A stretch of 64,000 nt of DNA from the NCBI RefSeq assembly GCF_004363095.1, contig NZ_SNYO01000003.1, positions 496,001 through 560,000 of the forward strand, read 5' to 3'. The position numbers and the translations under genes are program-made. Under the pieces are notes generated by a model that worked only from the letters and a program-made list of their open reading frames with translations, was not told the DNA's origin and did not search any database. Source of the stretch: Actinomycetospora succinea (lineage in GTDB: Bacteria > Actinomycetota > Actinomycetes > Mycobacteriales > Pseudonocardiaceae). Below are positions 44,355 through 50,849 of this stretch, in pieces (position 1 is the stretch's first letter; every line of letters starts with the position of its first letter).

Positions 44355-44470
44355 TCTTCATCCCTGTGGCGTGCGGGGCGGGAGCGCCGACGTTCCGTGA
44401 CGCCATCGGGTGACCAGGGGTCCCCCGACCTGCTGAGAACCCTTGGGCGCGGTCCACGCCCGGACACACG

Positions 44471-46477
44471 ATGACCGTCGTCGCGGGTGGATCGGGGGGA
44501 CGGGTGGGCGCTCGACGTGTCCTGGTGCCGCTGCTCTGCGCGCTGACCACGACGGTCCTGGTCGCCGTCCCGGCCTCGGCCGCGCCCCCGGGCCCGCGCG
44601 TCGACCTCCGCGTCCTGGTCGTCCAGGACGGCAGCCCCGAGGTCGACGCCGTCCTCGAGGCGCTCACCGAGGGCGGGGTGCCCACCGACGTCGTCGACCT
44701 GTCCGACCCCGCCCGTCGCCCGGTCGACCGCGCCTCGCTGACCGTCCCGGACGCGGTGCCGCACGCCCGCTACCAGGGTGTCGTGCTGCCCGGCGACGCG
44801 CCGGTCGAGCTGGCCCCCGCCGAGCTCACGGTGCTCCACGACGTCGAGCGGGAGTTCCGCCTGCGCCAGCTGAACGCCACGGTGCGCGCGACGGCGCGGA
44901 CCGGGCTCGCCGAGCCGAGCCCAGGTGCGGGCTGGTCGGGCCGGCTGGACGGCGGGGTCGCCCGGCTCACCGATGCGGCCCGCGCCGACGGCTTCGGGGA
45001 CATGCGCGGCGACGTGCCGGTCGGCGAGGACACCTGGGTCGAGATCGGGACCCCGCTGGCGGGCTACACGACGCTCTTGACGGGGAGCTCGCCCGACGGG
45101 ACGCACCGCGGGCCGCTGCTGGGCGTCCTGCGCACCGGCGGCCGCGAGGAGCTCGGCCTCTCGTTCTCCTACGCGCCCGGGTCGATGCCCTTCGCCGCGC
45201 TGGCGCCGGGCCTCGTCGAGTGGCTGACGCGCGGGGTGCACCTCGGGATGCGGCGCGCCTGGTTCGCCGTCCACGTCGACGACGTGCTCCTCCCGGACGC
45301 GCGCTGGGTCGCCGGGGCCCACTGCGCCTACGGGGCGGACTGCCCGCCGACCGTGCCGCCGGCGCCGACCATCCGCATGACCCCGGCCGACGTCGACGCC
45401 GCGGCGAGCTGGTCGCACGACCACGACTTCCGCCTCGACCTGGCCTTCAACGGGGCGGGCTCGCGGCTCGCCGCGCCCGGCGGCGACGACCCCCTGCTCG
45501 CGGCGCTGCTCGCGCGGCGCGGCGCCTTCGGCTGGATCAACCACACCTGGTCGCACCAGTACCTCGGCTGCGTCCGCGACCACGGGGTCGTGCCCTGGCG
45601 CTGCGCCACCGTCCCCCTCCTGGGCTGGACGCGGTACGTGCCCGAGCGGGTGATCGACGACGAGGTGGCCCGCAACACCGCGTTCGCGCGCGACGTCGGC
45701 CTGCCGATCAACCCGTCCGAGCTGGTCACCGGCGAGCACAGCGGCCTGCGCGGCGACGAGGAGATGCCCGAGGACAACCCCGGGCTCGCCGGCGCGCTCG
45801 ACGACGAGGGCATCCGCAGCGTCGCCGCGGACGCGTCGAAGGAGGCCGGCCAGCGCCCGATCGGCGGGGCGCGGACCGTGCCGCGCCACCCCATCGACCT
45901 CGACTTCGACACGGCCACGTTCGCCGAGACCGTCGACCAGTACAACTGGTCGCACACCTCCCGCGCCGACGGCGGTGACGGCACCTGCGAGGCCGACGGC
46001 GGCTGCGTGCCGCCCGTGCCGGCGGGCGATCCGAGGGCGGGGTTCCTGGGGCGGATCGTGCCGATGGAGGTGACGAAGGCGCTCGGGCACGCGCTGGCCA
46101 ACGACCCCCGGCCCCACTACGTGCACCAGCCGCAGCTCACCGAGGACCGCACCCTCTACCCGGTGCTGGACCAGGTCCTCGGCTCCTACCGCGCGCTCTA
46201 CACCGAGGCGCGCCCGCTGCTGGTGCCGACGATGACGCAGTCGGCCGAGGTGCTCGGGCGCCAGGCCGCCTGGGCCACCGCGGCGGGGAGCACCCGCGCC
46301 TGGCTGCAGGACGGCATCGTGACGGTGGTGTCGGGCGGGGCGTCCGACCGGCCCGTCGACGTCCCGGTGACCGTGCCGCCCGCGCTCGACGGCGCGTTCG
46401 GCGAGCCCTACGGCACCACGCGCTCGGGCTGGGTCCCGGTCGCCGGGGAGCAACGGATCGGAGGAGTGGCCCCGTGA
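44471..46477 (+). CDS. Secreted Agd3-like (CE18-type) polysaccharide deacetylase
   Basis: A 668-residue protein with a signal peptide (RRVLVPLLCALTTTVLVAVP, cleavage near ASAAPP at about 38). Residues 45-255 look like a carbohydrate-binding/Rossmann-like domain. The catalytic part has the metal-binding-type motifs HVDDVLLPD from 268 and NHTWSHQYLG from 357, with GEHSGL at about 421. This order of a DD motif followed by HxxxH fits NodB-like deacetylases, and the overall layout resembles fungal Agd3, which removes acetyl groups from galactosaminogalactan. It is the first gene of a five-gene operon; its stop overlaps the PelF-like gene by four bases. The CE18 assignment is inference from motifs and context. 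Confidence 0.7.
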   Translation: MTVVAGGSGGRVGARRVLVPLLCALTTTVLVAVPASAAPPGPRVDLRVLVVQDGSPEVDAVLEALTEGGVPTDVVDLSDPARRPVDRASLTVPDAVPHARYQGVVLPGDAPVELAPAELTVLHDVEREFRLRQLNATVRATARTGLAEPSPGAGWSGRLDGGVARLTDAARADGFGDMRGDVPVGEDTWVEIGTPLAGYTTLLTGSSPDGTHRGPLLGVLRTGGREELGLSFSYAPGSMPFAALAPGLVEWLTRGVHLGMRRAWFAVHVDDVLLPDARWVAGAHCAYGADCPPTVPPAPTIRMTPADVDAAASWSHDHDFRLDLAFNGAGSRLAAPGGDDPLLAALLARRGAFGWINHTWSHQYLGCVRDHGVVPWRCATVPLLGWTRYVPERVIDDEVARNTAFARDVGLPINPSELVTGEHSGLRGDEEMPEDNPGLAGALDDEGIRSVAADASKEAGQRPIGGARTVPRHPIDLDFDTATFAETVDQYNWSHTSRADGGDGTCEADGGCVPPVPAGDPRAGFLGRIVPMEVTKALGHALANDPRPHYVHQPQLTEDRTLYPVLDQVLGSYRALYTEARPLLVPTMTQSAEVLGRQAAWATAAGSTRAWLQDGIVTVVSGGASDRPVDVPVTVPPALDGAFGEPYGTTRSGWVPVAGEQRIGGVAP

Positions 46478-47955
46478 AGGTCGCGCTGGTGACGGAGGGG
46501 ACGTACCCGATCCACGCGGGTGGCGTGAGCGACTGGTGCGCCCAGCTCGTCCGGAGCCTCCCGGAGATCGACTTCGAGGTCGTCGCCCTGTCGGGGTCGG
46601 GACGGGAGACGGCGACCTACACGCCGCCGCCCAACGTCGCCGCGGTGCGGCGGATCGGGCTCTGGGCCGAGCCGGCGCGCCCCCGCCGGCCCCGGCCGCC
46701 CGGGCGCCGGTTCCTGCGGACCTACACCGACCTGCTCGACGCGATGCTGCTCGGCGGGCTCGCCGCCCCGCGGGACTTCGAGCACGCCGTGCGGACGCTG
46801 CGCGACATGGCCCGCACCGTCGACCTCACCGAGGCGCTGCGCAGCCAGGAGGCCGTCGACCTGGTGCTCGAGGTGACCGCGGCGCTCCCGGAGCTCACCC
46901 CGACCCTCGCCGACGCCCTGGCGGTGACCGACCTCGTCGAGCACTTCCTGCGCCCGCTGCAGCTCCCCGCGCCGCGGGCCGACCTCGTGCACTGCACGGT
47001 CAACGGGCCGGCGATGCTGCTGGGGATCTGCGCCGCCTGGGAGCACGGGACCCCCGTGCTGCTCTCCGAGCACGGCGTCTACCTGCGGGAACGGTTGATG
47101 GCGACGCGGCGCTCCGGCGCCGGGCGCGCCGAGCGGGCCGCTCTGCACGGGTTCTACGCCGCGCTCACCGGCCTCGGCTACCGGCGGGCCGACGCGGTGC
47201 TGCCCGTGAGCGGCTTCAACGCGCGCTGGGCGCTGCAGGGCGGCGCCCGCCCGGACGCGGTGCGGCTGCTGCCGAACGGGGTCGACCCCGCCGGGCTCGC
47301 GCCGCTCGCGACCGAACCGGACGTCCCGACCCTCGTTTACGCCGGGCGCATCGACCCGCTCAAGGACCTCCACACGCTGCTCGCGGCGTTCGCCCGGGTC
47401 CGCCTCGCGGTGCCCGGCGCCCGGCTGCGCCTCTTCGGGGGCGTGCCCGCGGGCAACGAGGGCTACCGGGCCTCGTGCGACGCGCTGGTCGCCGAGCTCG
47501 GCCTGGGCGACGCCGTGGTGTTCGAGGGGCCGATCAGCCCGGTGCGCCGCGCGTTCGAGGCCGGCCACGTGGTGGTGCTCTCGAGCGTCTCCGAGGGCCT
47601 GCCGCTGACCGTCATCGAGGCCGCGATGTGCGGGCGGCCGGTGGTCGCCACCGACGTCGGCGGCGTCGCCGAGGCCGTCGGCCACGGCGGGATCGTAGTG
47701 CCGGCGGGCCACGTGGCGGCGTTCGCCGACGCGTGCGTCGAGCTGCTCACCGACGCCTCGCTGCGCCGGGAGCTCGCCCGCGCCGGGCGGGACCACGCCC
47801 GGCGGCGGTTCACGCTCGACCGCTTCCGCACCGACATCCGGGCGATCTACGCCCACCACACCGGGTCCGCCGCGGCGCCGGCGCCCCACGGCCTCGCCCC
47901 CGCGCCGTCCGACGAGGGCCGCACGGTCGAGGAGGTCGGCCGCGGATGGGCGTGA
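46474..47955 (+). CDS. PelF-like GT4 glycosyltransferase
   Basis: A 493-residue GT-B glycosyltransferase. The N-terminus VTEGTYPIHAGGVSDWCAQL (residues 6-25), followed by VRSLPEIDFEVVALSG, is the hallmark of PelF, the cytosolic enzyme that polymerises the Pel polysaccharide. The C-terminal nucleotide-sugar site has SSVSEGLPLTVIEAAMCGRP. Fungal Gt4c of the galactosaminogalactan pathway has a PelF-like domain too. It likely uses UDP-GalNAc or UDP-GlcNAc. The GTG at 46474 overlaps the deacetylase stop. Its end overlaps the next membrane gene by ten bases. Confidence 0.88.
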   Translation: MKVALVTEGTYPIHAGGVSDWCAQLVRSLPEIDFEVVALSGSGRETATYTPPPNVAAVRRIGLWAEPARPRRPRPPGRRFLRTYTDLLDAMLLGGLAAPRDFEHAVRTLRDMARTVDLTEALRSQEAVDLVLEVTAALPELTPTLADALAVTDLVEHFLRPLQLPAPRADLVHCTVNGPAMLLGICAAWEHGTPVLLSEHGVYLRERLMATRRSGAGRAERAALHGFYAALTGLGYRRADAVLPVSGFNARWALQGGARPDAVRLLPNGVDPAGLAPLATEPDVPTLVYAGRIDPLKDLHTLLAAFARVRLAVPGARLRLFGGVPAGNEGYRASCDALVAELGLGDAVVFEGPISPVRRAFEAGHVVVLSSVSEGLPLTVIEAAMCGRPVVATDVGGVAEAVGHGGIVVPAGHVAAFADACVELLTDASLRRELARAGRDHARRRFTLDRFRTDIRAIYAHHTGSAAAPAPHGLAPAPSDEGRTVEEVGRGWA

Positions 47956-49388
47956 AACGTGTCGACTCCGCGGTCGCGCACGCCGCGGGCTCGTCGACGA
48001 CCCGCTTCGAGGCGGCCGTGGTGATCGAGGGTGCCGGGGTCAACGACCGCGTGGCCTCGCAGCGCTACGGCGCCGCCGACGTCTTCGACCTCGCCGGCCG
48101 GCTCGTCGCCGACCGGCGCCGCCCGCGCTCGGAACCCGCCGCCGCGCCCCCGCGCCGGACGTGGTCCACGGCCGGCGACCCGCGGTGGCTCCCGGCGCGG
48201 GGAGTGCTCTACGCCGTCCCCGCGGTGGTCGCGCTCGCGCTGCTGCCCAGCGAGGACCCGGTGTCGGCCACGCTGATGCTCGGCGGGCTGGTGCTGGCCT
48301 GGGCGGCGGCGTACGGCGTCGCGAGCGTGGCCTGGTCGTACCTCGGCAACCTCGACCGGCCCGCCGCCCGGCGCTTCCTGCGGCGCGCCCTGCTCGTCGG
48401 GACCGGCGTCGCGCTGGTGCTGGCGGTCGCGGCGGTGTTCGGCGCGCTGGTGCTCACGGCGACGATGTCGGTCGACCTCGTCACCGTCGTGCTGCTCACC
48501 GGGCAGGCGGCGTACCTGCTCGCGGCGGCGGCCCTGCTGCTGTGCGGCCGGGAGGCCTGGCTGCTCGGCGCGCTGCTCCCGGCCGTCGTCGGCGCCGTGC
48601 TCGGTCTGCTCGTGCCGCACGAGGGGCCGGCGAGCGCGCTCGCCAACCCGACCAGCGGCGTCCCCGCCCGCGACCTGCTGTGGCCGGCCGCGTCGGTGGT
48701 GCTCGCGGTCGTCCTCGCCCTCGTCGCGACCCGCGGCGGACGCCGGCCGGTGTCCGCTCTGCCCCGGTCGGCGTGGACGCACGCCGGCGCGCAGGTCGGG
48801 TTCGGGCTCTTCGTCGCCGTGCTCGTGCTGTTCCCGGCGCTCGAGCAGCTGCTCGACCCGGGGTTCGACCCGCTGCCGCTCACGCTCACCTCGCTCGCGC
48901 TGCCGCTGGTGCTGACCACGGGCGTCGCGGAGTGGCTCCTCGTCCGCTTCCGGGAGCGGACCGGGGCGCTGCTCGCCGCCACCGGCTCGGCGTCGCGGTT
49001 CGCCCGCGGGGCGCGGCACGCGGCGCTGCGCGCCCATCTGCTGTACCTCGTCGCGCTCACGGGGGCGACCGTGCTGTTCGGCGCGGCGGTGGCGGTCTCG
49101 ATGCCCGGCTGGGACGTCCGCCTGGTGCTGCTGGGGGCCGACTACGTCGTGCTCGGCACCGCACTCTTCGCCGCGGCCGTGGCCACCGCGCTCGGCCGGG
49201 GCGACCGCGTCCTCGCCCTGCTCGCGGCGGCCGTGGCCGGGCTGGCGGCGTTCATCGTGCGCGGCCAGGCCGTGCCCGCCTCCGGCACCGCGGCGATCCT
49301 CTGGCACCTCGGGACCGGCGTGGTGCTGCTCGCCGTCCTCGGGGTCCTCGTGCGGCGCTCCGCCGGGGTCCCGGTGCGGCACCGATGA
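47946..49388 (+). CDS. 12-helix membrane protein of the polysaccharide operon (PelG-like role)
   Basis: A 480-residue protein with a cytosolic arm of about 75 residues and 12 likely membrane helices (first LYAVPAVVALALLP, last ILWHLGTGVVLLAVLGVLV). I do not recognise it by sequence alone. Length, helix number and place after the PelF-like gene match PelG, which forms the inner-membrane transport partner of PelF, so export of the polymer is the likely job. The ATG at 47946 overlaps the upstream gene by ten bases and its stop overlaps the spherulin gene. Confidence 0.72.
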   Translation: MGVKRVDSAVAHAAGSSTTRFEAAVVIEGAGVNDRVASQRYGAADVFDLAGRLVADRRRPRSEPAAAPPRRTWSTAGDPRWLPARGVLYAVPAVVALALLPSEDPVSATLMLGGLVLAWAAAYGVASVAWSYLGNLDRPAARRFLRRALLVGTGVALVLAVAAVFGALVLTATMSVDLVTVVLLTGQAAYLLAAAALLLCGREAWLLGALLPAVVGAVLGLLVPHEGPASALANPTSGVPARDLLWPAASVVLAVVLALVATRGGRRPVSALPRSAWTHAGAQVGFGLFVAVLVLFPALEQLLDPGFDPLPLTLTSLALPLVLTTGVAEWLLVRFRERTGALLAATGSASRFARGARHAALRAHLLYLVALTGATVLFGAAVAVSMPGWDVRLVLLGADYVVLGTALFAAAVATALGRGDRVLALLAAAVAGLAAFIVRGQAVPASGTAAILWHLGTGVVLLAVLGVLVRRSAGVPVRHR

Positions 49389-50011
49389 GCGTCACGAGCG
49401 TGGGCGTCCCCGCCTACTTCCACCCGCGGCGCGAGGCCGCCGACTGGGCGCGCCTGCGGGCCCTCGGCGACCGGCTGGGCATCGTGGTGGTCAACCCCGA
49501 CACCGGGCCCGGCGCCGGCGACGCCGCGTACCGGACCGCGGTCCGCGACCTGCCCGGGCTGGTCGCCGGCTACGTCGACACCGACTACGCCCGCCGCCCG
49601 CTCGCCGACGTGCTCGCCGACGTCGCGGCGTACTGCCGGCTGCACGGGATCGAGGCCGTCTTCGCCGACCAGGTCACGTCGTCGGCCGAGCACCTGCCCT
49701 ACTACGCGCGCCTCGCGGCGGCCGTCGACGCCGCGCTGATCCTCAACCCGGGCGTGCGCCCGGACCCCGGCTACCTGCGGCTGGCCGCGGTGGTCGTGAC
49801 CTTCGAGGGCCCGTGGTCGGCGCACGCCGCCCTCGACACGCCGGACCCGCCGGGCCTCGCCGCCACCTGGCACCTCGTCCACGGGGTGCCCGACGGCGAG
49901 GAGGAGCGGACGCTCGCGCGGGCGACCGCGCTGGGGGCGACCCACGCCTACGCCACCGGGGCGGCGCTACCGAACCCCTGGGGCGCGCTGCCGACCTGGC
50001 TGGGCCCGTGA
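49385..50011 (+). CDS. Spherulin-4 family (Sph3-like) glycosidase
   Basis: A 208-residue protein of the spherulation-specific family 4: GVPAYFHPRREAADWARLRA, then VVNPDTGPGAGD, GYVDTDYARRP and HGIEAVFADQVTS. Fungal Sph3 is an endo-alpha-1,4-N-acetylgalactosaminidase needed for galactosaminogalactan production. No signal peptide or membrane helix is visible, so unlike Sph3 it appears cytosolic unless exported another way. The ATG overlaps the stop of the membrane gene, and its end overlaps the GH114 start. Confidence 0.85.
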   Translation: MSVTSVGVPAYFHPRREAADWARLRALGDRLGIVVVNPDTGPGAGDAAYRTAVRDLPGLVAGYVDTDYARRPLADVLADVAAYCRLHGIEAVFADQVTSSAEHLPYYARLAAAVDAALILNPGVRPDPGYLRLAAVVVTFEGPWSAHAALDTPDPPGLAATWHLVHGVPDGEEERTLARATALGATHAYATGAALPNPWGALPTWLGP

Positions 50012-50799
50012 CGCGCGCGGGCCTCGTGGCCCTCGTGTGCGGCGGGCTGATGATGGCGCTCGCGTGCGGGTCGCCCGCCGGGGCCGGCGGCGGGGTCCCG
50101 GCGCCGGCGGGCAGCACCTGGCAGTACCAGCTCCAGGGCCCCGTGGACACGTCCGTCGACGCGGCCACCTACGACGTCGACCTGTTCAGCACCTCCGCGC
50201 AGACCGTCGCGGCGCTGCACGCCGACGGGCGCCAGGTCGTCTGCTACGTCAACGCGGGCGCGCTGGAGGACTGGCGGCCGGACGCCGGGGCGCTGCCCGA
50301 GGAGGTGCGCGGGCAGGAGCTGGAGGACTGGCCGGACGAGTACTGGCTCGACGTCCGGCGCACCGACGTCCTCGAGCCCTGGCTCGCGGCGCGCTTCGAC
50401 CTGTGCAAGGAGAAGGGCTTCGACGCCGTCGAGCCCGACAACGTCGACGGCTACACCCACCCCACCGGCTTCCCGCTCACCGAGGACGACCAGCTGGCCT
50501 ACAACCGCCTGCTCGCCCGCCTCGCCCACGAGCGCGGCCTGGCCGTCGGGCTGAAGAACGACCTCGACCAGGTCGACGACCTCGTCGGCGACTTCGACTT
50601 CGCGGTCAACGAGCAGTGCGCCCAGTACCGCGAGTGCGAGGCGCTCGCGCCGTTCGTGGCGGCGCAGAAGCCCGTCTACCACGTGGAGTACGACCTCCCG
50701 CTGGCGTCGTTCTGCCCGCCGCCGACGGGGTTCCGCTCGATCCGCAAGAACATCGTCCTCGACGCCCCCGTGGAGACCTGCCCCGCCCCGGCGCCCTGA
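50008..50799 (+). CDS. GH114 endo-alpha-1,4-polygalactosaminidase lipoprotein (Ega3-like)
   Basis: A 263-residue protein. The signal ends in a lipobox (LMMALAC, Cys20), so it should be anchored outside the membrane. The GH114 barrel has WQYQLQGPVDTSVDAATYDV, then VCYVNAGALEDW, FDAVEPDNVDGY (about 138-149, probable acidic catalytic residue) and FAVNEQCAQYREC (second acid Glu202). Family members cut polygalactosamine; fungal Ega3 is the pathway counterpart. The GTG at 50008 overlaps the spherulin stop. It is the last gene of the operon. Confidence 0.88.
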   Translation: MTRAGLVALVCGGLMMALACGSPAGAGGGVPAPAGSTWQYQLQGPVDTSVDAATYDVDLFSTSAQTVAALHADGRQVVCYVNAGALEDWRPDAGALPEEVRGQELEDWPDEYWLDVRRTDVLEPWLAARFDLCKEKGFDAVEPDNVDGYTHPTGFPLTEDDQLAYNRLLARLAHERGLAVGLKNDLDQVDDLVGDFDFAVNEQCAQYRECEALAPFVAAQKPVYHVEYDLPLASFCPPPTGFRSIRKNIVLDAPVETCPAPAP

Positions 50800-50849
50800 G
50801 CCACGAGGTGTCGCCGCTCGCTCGTCGCGCCGAGTGCTCCGACCGGGCC

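Follow-up and report, generated by a model that had tools for sequence, protein, structure and literature searches.

A five-gene operon of Actinomycetospora succinea for the predicted synthesis, export and trimming of a partly deacetylated galactosamine polymer

A 64 000-nucleotide stretch of the Actinomycetospora succinea genome (contig NZ_SNYO01000003.1, positions 496 001 to 560 000 of the forward strand; hereafter the window) holds a compact operon of five genes, g1 to g5, on the + strand at positions 44471-50799. Judged from sequences and predicted models, this cassette quite probably makes, exports and trims a partly deacetylated galactosamine polymer, likely a sticky one comparable to the biofilm slimes formed by Aspergillus and Pseudomonas. 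With five genes, the cassette represents in minimal form the type of machinery that produces galactosaminogalactan (GAG) in Aspergillus and Pel in Pseudomonas. Its steps lie in separate proteins, so that the reason why glycosidases accompany synthesis could be sought gene by gene. An earlier reading of the same DNA (the original prediction) had described overlapping genes in which the enzymes of the fungal set surround a PelF core. The overlaps were confirmed by the open reading frame coordinates (4, 10, 4 and 4 bases, in gene order), and family, structure and synteny evidence bore out the gene identities, the operon and its composition.

Assignment of the five proteins

The deacetylase g1 was assigned by means of its homologues. 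A profile of 21 of them matched Agd3 (6nwz; E 3.2e-8), and the predicted structure of g1 matched Agd3 over residues 41 to 668. The modelled domains are those of Agd3 (N-terminal CBM87-like, CE and C-terminal beta), and catalytic motifs CM1-4 are present. The six Agd3 residues named in PMC7229062 correspond to D270, D271, H358, H362, R472 and H552 of g1. They are invariant in the 21-row alignment A1 and were kept in 43, 41, 41, 41, 34 and 41, respectively, of 43 rows (the window and the loci described below; a shortened L049 copy was counted twice and rows under 60% of the window protein length were dropped). The hydrophobic N-terminal segment 17-35 is likely a signal peptide. No different enzyme class was matched, so that the Agd3-like label first given to g1 is retained: by homology and model it is a CE18-like enzyme, and metal-dependent deacetylation of alpha-1,4-linked N-acetylgalactosamine (GalNAc) oligomers is its predicted activity. 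A PHROGs scan of g1, g4 and g5 gave no match. In one relative (L049:7369-13978), three g1-like genes (AGD) stand in tandem; the middle copy is shortened and its metal-binding histidines are absent in the alignment.

The glycosyltransferase g2 scored 159.2 bits against the NCBIfam PelF equivalog (cut-off 100) and contains the Pfam domains DUF3492 and Glyco_trans_1_4 (GT4), in agreement with its description as a PelF-like GT4. Its EX7E motif lies at E374/E382, both residues being kept in 37/37 rows. The membrane protein g3 has the 12 hydrophobic segments expected of it. Its predicted structure is a MOP-flippase fold (MATE/Wzx/MurJ), which would place it in that superfamily. The expected match to the PelG hidden Markov model (HMM) did not materialize. 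A search of the PDB sequences with the g3 profile gave a cytochrome bc1 subunit as best match (E 0.2).

A diverged but genuine Pel operon, of the pelDEADAFG type known from Gram-positive bacteria, would also give a g2 above the curated PelF cut-off and a modelled MOP fold in g3, a fold likewise ascribed to PelG. Membership of a canonical Pel operon was rejected because the PelG HMM was unmatched and the deacetylase is of the CE18 type, and a diverged Pel operon is considered unlikely. The model PF16963 for PelD, the c-di-GMP receptor of Pel systems, gave no match, though no control matched either.

Three further observations were made on these proteins. The N-terminal helical domain of g3 (about residues 1-60; window:47946-48130) is conserved and has no family match; it is possibly a docking site for PelF. 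Two predicted proteins in which parts of the operon are joined count in favour of the mechanism proposed below; both may be gene-call or assembly artefacts. P0047 (1091 aa) joins AGD with PelF and misses both ends of g1, and P0198 (985 aa) links PelF to a membrane portion of weak similarity to g3 (E 9e-4). A fusion search aimed at the fungal glycosyltransferase returned only bacterial or unnamed proteins among the best 120 of 289.

The two glycosidases had been named as Sph3-like spherulin-4 and GH114 enzymes, and both names were upheld. The first, g4, matched Spherulin4 (PF12138) above its cut-off and Sph3 (5c5g; E 2e-5). It has the catalytic Asp/Glu pair of GH135: D95 and E141 were kept in 25/25 rows and align with two Sph3 residues, the Asp in the motif FFDE and the Glu in VVFEA. 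The Sph3 pair is printed as Asp196/Glu222 (PMC12054363). When residues are counted along the Sph3 chain with the VVFEA Glu as 222, the FFDE Asp is 166. Asp166 is presumably the catalytic residue as published. Among the 25 rows, the residue after the catalytic Asp, which is Glu in Sph3, is Gln 15 times, Arg 7 times, Glu twice and Cys once. The second glycosidase, g5, matched GH114 (PF03537) with 282.9 bits and Ega3 (6ojb; E 1.1e-53). Its residues D144 and E202 were kept in 19/19 rows, and its N-terminus is lipoprotein-like (MMALAC).

No stretch of 15 residues with a mean hydropathy above 1.6 precedes the VPAYFHP-like domain start in 23/25 g4-like proteins (SPH). In the window, a single start codon was found within 60 codons ahead of the domain, 7 residues before it. 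Because of these two features, the operon-borne GH135 is predicted to be cytosolic. The exceptions with a hydrophobic N-terminus are L083 and L084, whose AGD gene is on the opposite strand. The SPH proteins of these two loci are about 460 aa long, with a long C-terminal extension and a fungal-type DE pair.

Conservation in relatives and identity of the polymer

Matches to g1 (E <= 1e-3) were found in 27/200 sampled genomes of the family (about half of them weak) and in 13/396 genomes of the phylum sample, the A. succinea genome being included in both counts. Thirty-six loci around g1 matches were scored; some genomes gave several loci. The stretches were of limited size and some reach contig ends, so that gene absences are lower bounds. 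PelF was present in 33 of the 36 loci (not found in L038, L039 and L085), the g3-like membrane protein (TM) in 28, SPH in 24 and GH114 in 18. All five genes stood in order in 15, which answers the earlier expectation that they co-occur in relatives. Chance adjacency was rejected, as the same genes are found together in these genomes. The nearest named locus is L002 of Actinomycetospora sp. NBRC 106375 (Pseudonocardiaceae), whose g1 is 91% identical.

These counts also bear on the idea that the cluster scavenges, deacetylating and digesting the galactosamine slimes of neighbouring fungi or bacteria. By family, three of its five genes encode esterases or glycosidases of kinds known in connection with such polymers. 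However, a polymerase-type glycosyltransferase and a MOP-fold protein stand in the middle of the operon with overlaps of 4-10 bases, PelF accompanies AGD in 33/36 loci, g4 has no export signal, and none of the five belongs to a family of uptake or catabolic genes. Scavenging is therefore regarded as very improbable.

A LegB-like gene (at least 65% identical to that of L042) follows TM in 17/36 loci, and SPH comes after it in 16/17 (the L049 stretch ends before). The complete long form, AGD-PelF-TM-LegB-NTP-SDR-SPH-GH114, was found in 12 loci. Against the LegB model TIGR04180 (cut-off 475), the LegB-like protein of L042 scored 451.5 bits and that of L036 455.6 bits. The second added gene (NTP) matches nucleotidyltransferases, and the third is an SDR nearest to GalE, with a low score. 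A sugar-1-phosphate nucleotidyltransferase, a 4,6-dehydratase and an SDR together give an NDP-6-deoxysugar in established pathways; by analogy, the long-form trio would make such a sugar. Literature searches that reached a minority of the subscription journals listed no paper whose title or abstract opening dealt with the long form.

The lack of these three genes marks the short form, found in the window, L002, L003, L075, L078, L080 and L081 (GH114 was not detected in L078 and L080, nor TM in L081). Two genomes have one long and one short form each: G551 (L075/L076) and G327 (L077/L078). In the PelF tree, the window, L002 and L003 group together (97/94), apart from the long forms. At least two label changes are needed for the short forms, so that the tree does not establish them as a single group. 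No root was drawn from this tree, which includes two stray long-branch rows (L048_g2_1 and L088_g2_1) and two rows for L043. A third class (L050-L053 and L086) has PelF, TM, NTP, SDR and divergent AGD genes, in two copies in 4/5 loci; SPH and GH114 were not detected in it. At the CM3 arginine position, eight of its AGD rows have Asp and one has Cys, and these proteins may not be ordinary CE18 enzymes.

The long form raises the question of whether the polymer contains another amino sugar, for instance a 6-deoxy-N-acetylhexosamine or N-acetylglucosamine. The LegB-like gene in 17/36 loci, with two proteins just under the TIGR04180 cut-off, favours this. Against it, the window and L002 have no LegB-like, nucleotidyltransferase or SDR gene of this kind; in L003, the homologues are merely distant ones (25-30%) and lie on the opposite strand beside the operon. 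None of the trio was matched anywhere in the window. A LegB-like enzyme elsewhere in the A. succinea genome was also considered, and the best match was only 33% identical. Moreover, g4 and g5 both match galactosaminidase families. Another amino sugar in the window polymer is judged improbable, and we infer from the sequences that the product is a partly deacetylated galactosamine polymer.

The original prediction was right that the operon has no epimerase: by family, none of the five genes is of the uge3 type, which the fungal GAG cluster includes. It did not foresee that many relatives' operons carry sugar-nucleotide genes. The galE model had no match inside the window, and two GalE proteins above the NCBIfam cut-off are encoded elsewhere in the genome. 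Since this genome has two GalE proteins and no close LegB match, the short form would be supplied with common UDP-GalNAc.

Proposed mechanism

To make the galactosamine polymer, g2 would polymerise UDP-GalNAc, probably supplied by housekeeping GalE, on the cytosolic face, and the chain would then cross the membrane by way of g3. On the cytosolic side, g4 would cut or clear chain that is still acetylated. Outside, secreted g1 would deacetylate the chain, and lipoprotein-like g5 would trim the deacetylated stretches, as Ega3 does. Action of g4 on acetylated chain inside the cell fits both its lack of an export signal and the preference of Sph3 for acetylated polymer (PMC12054363). Ega3 is reported to prefer deacetylated polymer (PMC7229062). 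Taken by analogy, the signals and these published preferences suggest a division of labour between inside and outside. The fungal Sph3 and Ega3 are called membrane-bound (PMC12054363). A wider proposal is tentative and rated less likely than not: the operons would form a two-compartment machine unlike the fungal one, with GH135 inside beside PelF and CE18 and GH114 outside, and would also make at least two polymers, plain GalNAc/GalN from the short form and a 6-deoxy-amino-sugar polymer from the long form, in some genomes side by side.

Several points weigh against production of a GAG-like polymer in this way. Searched alone, g1 had no match in Pfam, NCBIfam or PDB sequences. The PelG model (PF16933) matched neither g3 nor anything else genome-wide, and the same model matched in Thermotoga as a control. 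In g4, Gln takes the position of the Sph3 Glu that adjoins the catalytic Asp; 2/25 SPH rows, L083 and L084, keep the fungal-type Glu, and both have hydrophobic N-termini. The lipobox-like pattern was seen in 13/19 g5 rows. GH114 was not found in 18/36 loci, some of which end at contig or stretch ends. The sampled relatives hold sugar-nucleotide genes of the 6-deoxysugar type, and some may use another sugar. Finally, the proposal was drawn up from sequences and predicted models.

Presence of the cassette in the genus

PelF (E <= 1e-60) was found in 2/18 Actinomycetospora genomes, the second being G600, probably the same assembly as L002. Of the 17 other genomes of the genus, G600 has the operon, G598 and G601 were fragmentary and left out, and 14 were compared at the site. 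All 14 have yqgE (DUF179) followed by a DUF427 gene, and none of g1-g5. Alignment of the window to L127 (same genus, no operon) stops at the yqgE stop codon (44354) and restarts near 50811-50837, and the right border of the cassette lies somewhere in about that interval. Either the operon arrived here as one unit or the other genomes lost it. A promoter scan found none, and a single terminator-like site was seen, on the opposite strand. In two other genomes of the genus, extra DNA lies between the DUF427 and SdpI genes (L130:12136-14011 and L133:841-2138), near the cassette site of the window; insertions may be favoured in this region, as at a hot spot. Coordinates are collected in Table 1.

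Table 1. Genes of the operon and extent of the accessory cassette (window coordinates)
Feature	Position	Strand	Length	Description
g1	44471..46477	+	668 aa	Agd3-type CE18 de-N-acetylase (predicted) with CBM87-like domain
g2	46474..47955	+	493 aa	PelF-type GT4 glycosyltransferase; GTG start; likely polymerase
g3	47946..49388	+	480 aa	12-helix membrane protein, predicted MOP-flippase fold; likely chain exporter
g4	49385..50011	+	208 aa	GH135/spherulin-4 type glycosidase, without signal peptide
g5	50008..50799	+	263 aa	GH114, Ega3-like endo-alpha-1,4-polygalactosaminidase family; GTG start
Accessory cassette	44355..50837			yqgE (DUF179) stop codon to DUF427 gene, from comparison with L127

Comparison with known systems

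In Pel systems, the genes are pelABCDEFG in P. aeruginosa and pelDEADAFG in Bacillus cereus (PMC7112168, PMC13254593, PMC7112194). The pelDEADAFG set of the Gram-positive Pel papers also occurs in actinobacteria, and its gene set differs from that of the window. PelF, a polytopic membrane partner and deacetylation of a GalNAc polymer (predicted in the window) are shared. In the window, a CE18-type deacetylase stands in place of PelA/PelADA, GH135 and GH114 replace the PelA hydrolase domain, and the PelG HMM is unmatched.

The A. fumigatus GAG cluster consists of uge3, gtb3, sph3, ega3 and agd3 (PMC4817252). The window has counterparts of agd3, sph3, ega3 and the glycosyltransferase. Unlike the fungal cluster, the cassette has no epimerase and its GH135 has neither signal nor anchor; PelF and the membrane protein are separate genes, whereas fungal Gtb3 is a putative transmembrane glycosyltransferase (PMC4817252).

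The closest precedent is the report of Bamford et al. (2020), in which Agd3 homologues were found in 45 bacterial species, with the gene in or near carbohydrate-active-enzyme operons in 30/35 tree members (PMC7229062). All operons identified there had a cytoplasmic glycosyltransferase and a multi-spanning membrane protein, GH114 was highly consistent, and spherulin-4 was present in agd3 operons of some Actinobacteria; the authors saw support for a bacterial origin of the fungal GAG cluster by transfer (PMC7229062). The window has every one of these elements. The idea that operons of this kind are undescribed was therefore rejected, and the earlier claim that an actinobacterial system is little or not described was overstated: the window operon is a clear new example, not a new system. 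The name PelF, a MOP fold for the membrane protein, long and short forms, a GH135 in the cytosol and a cassette at the level of the genus do not appear in the available text of the 2020 report. Additions to that report are the cytosolic location predicted for GH135 and a long form equipped with sugar-nucleotide genes of its own.
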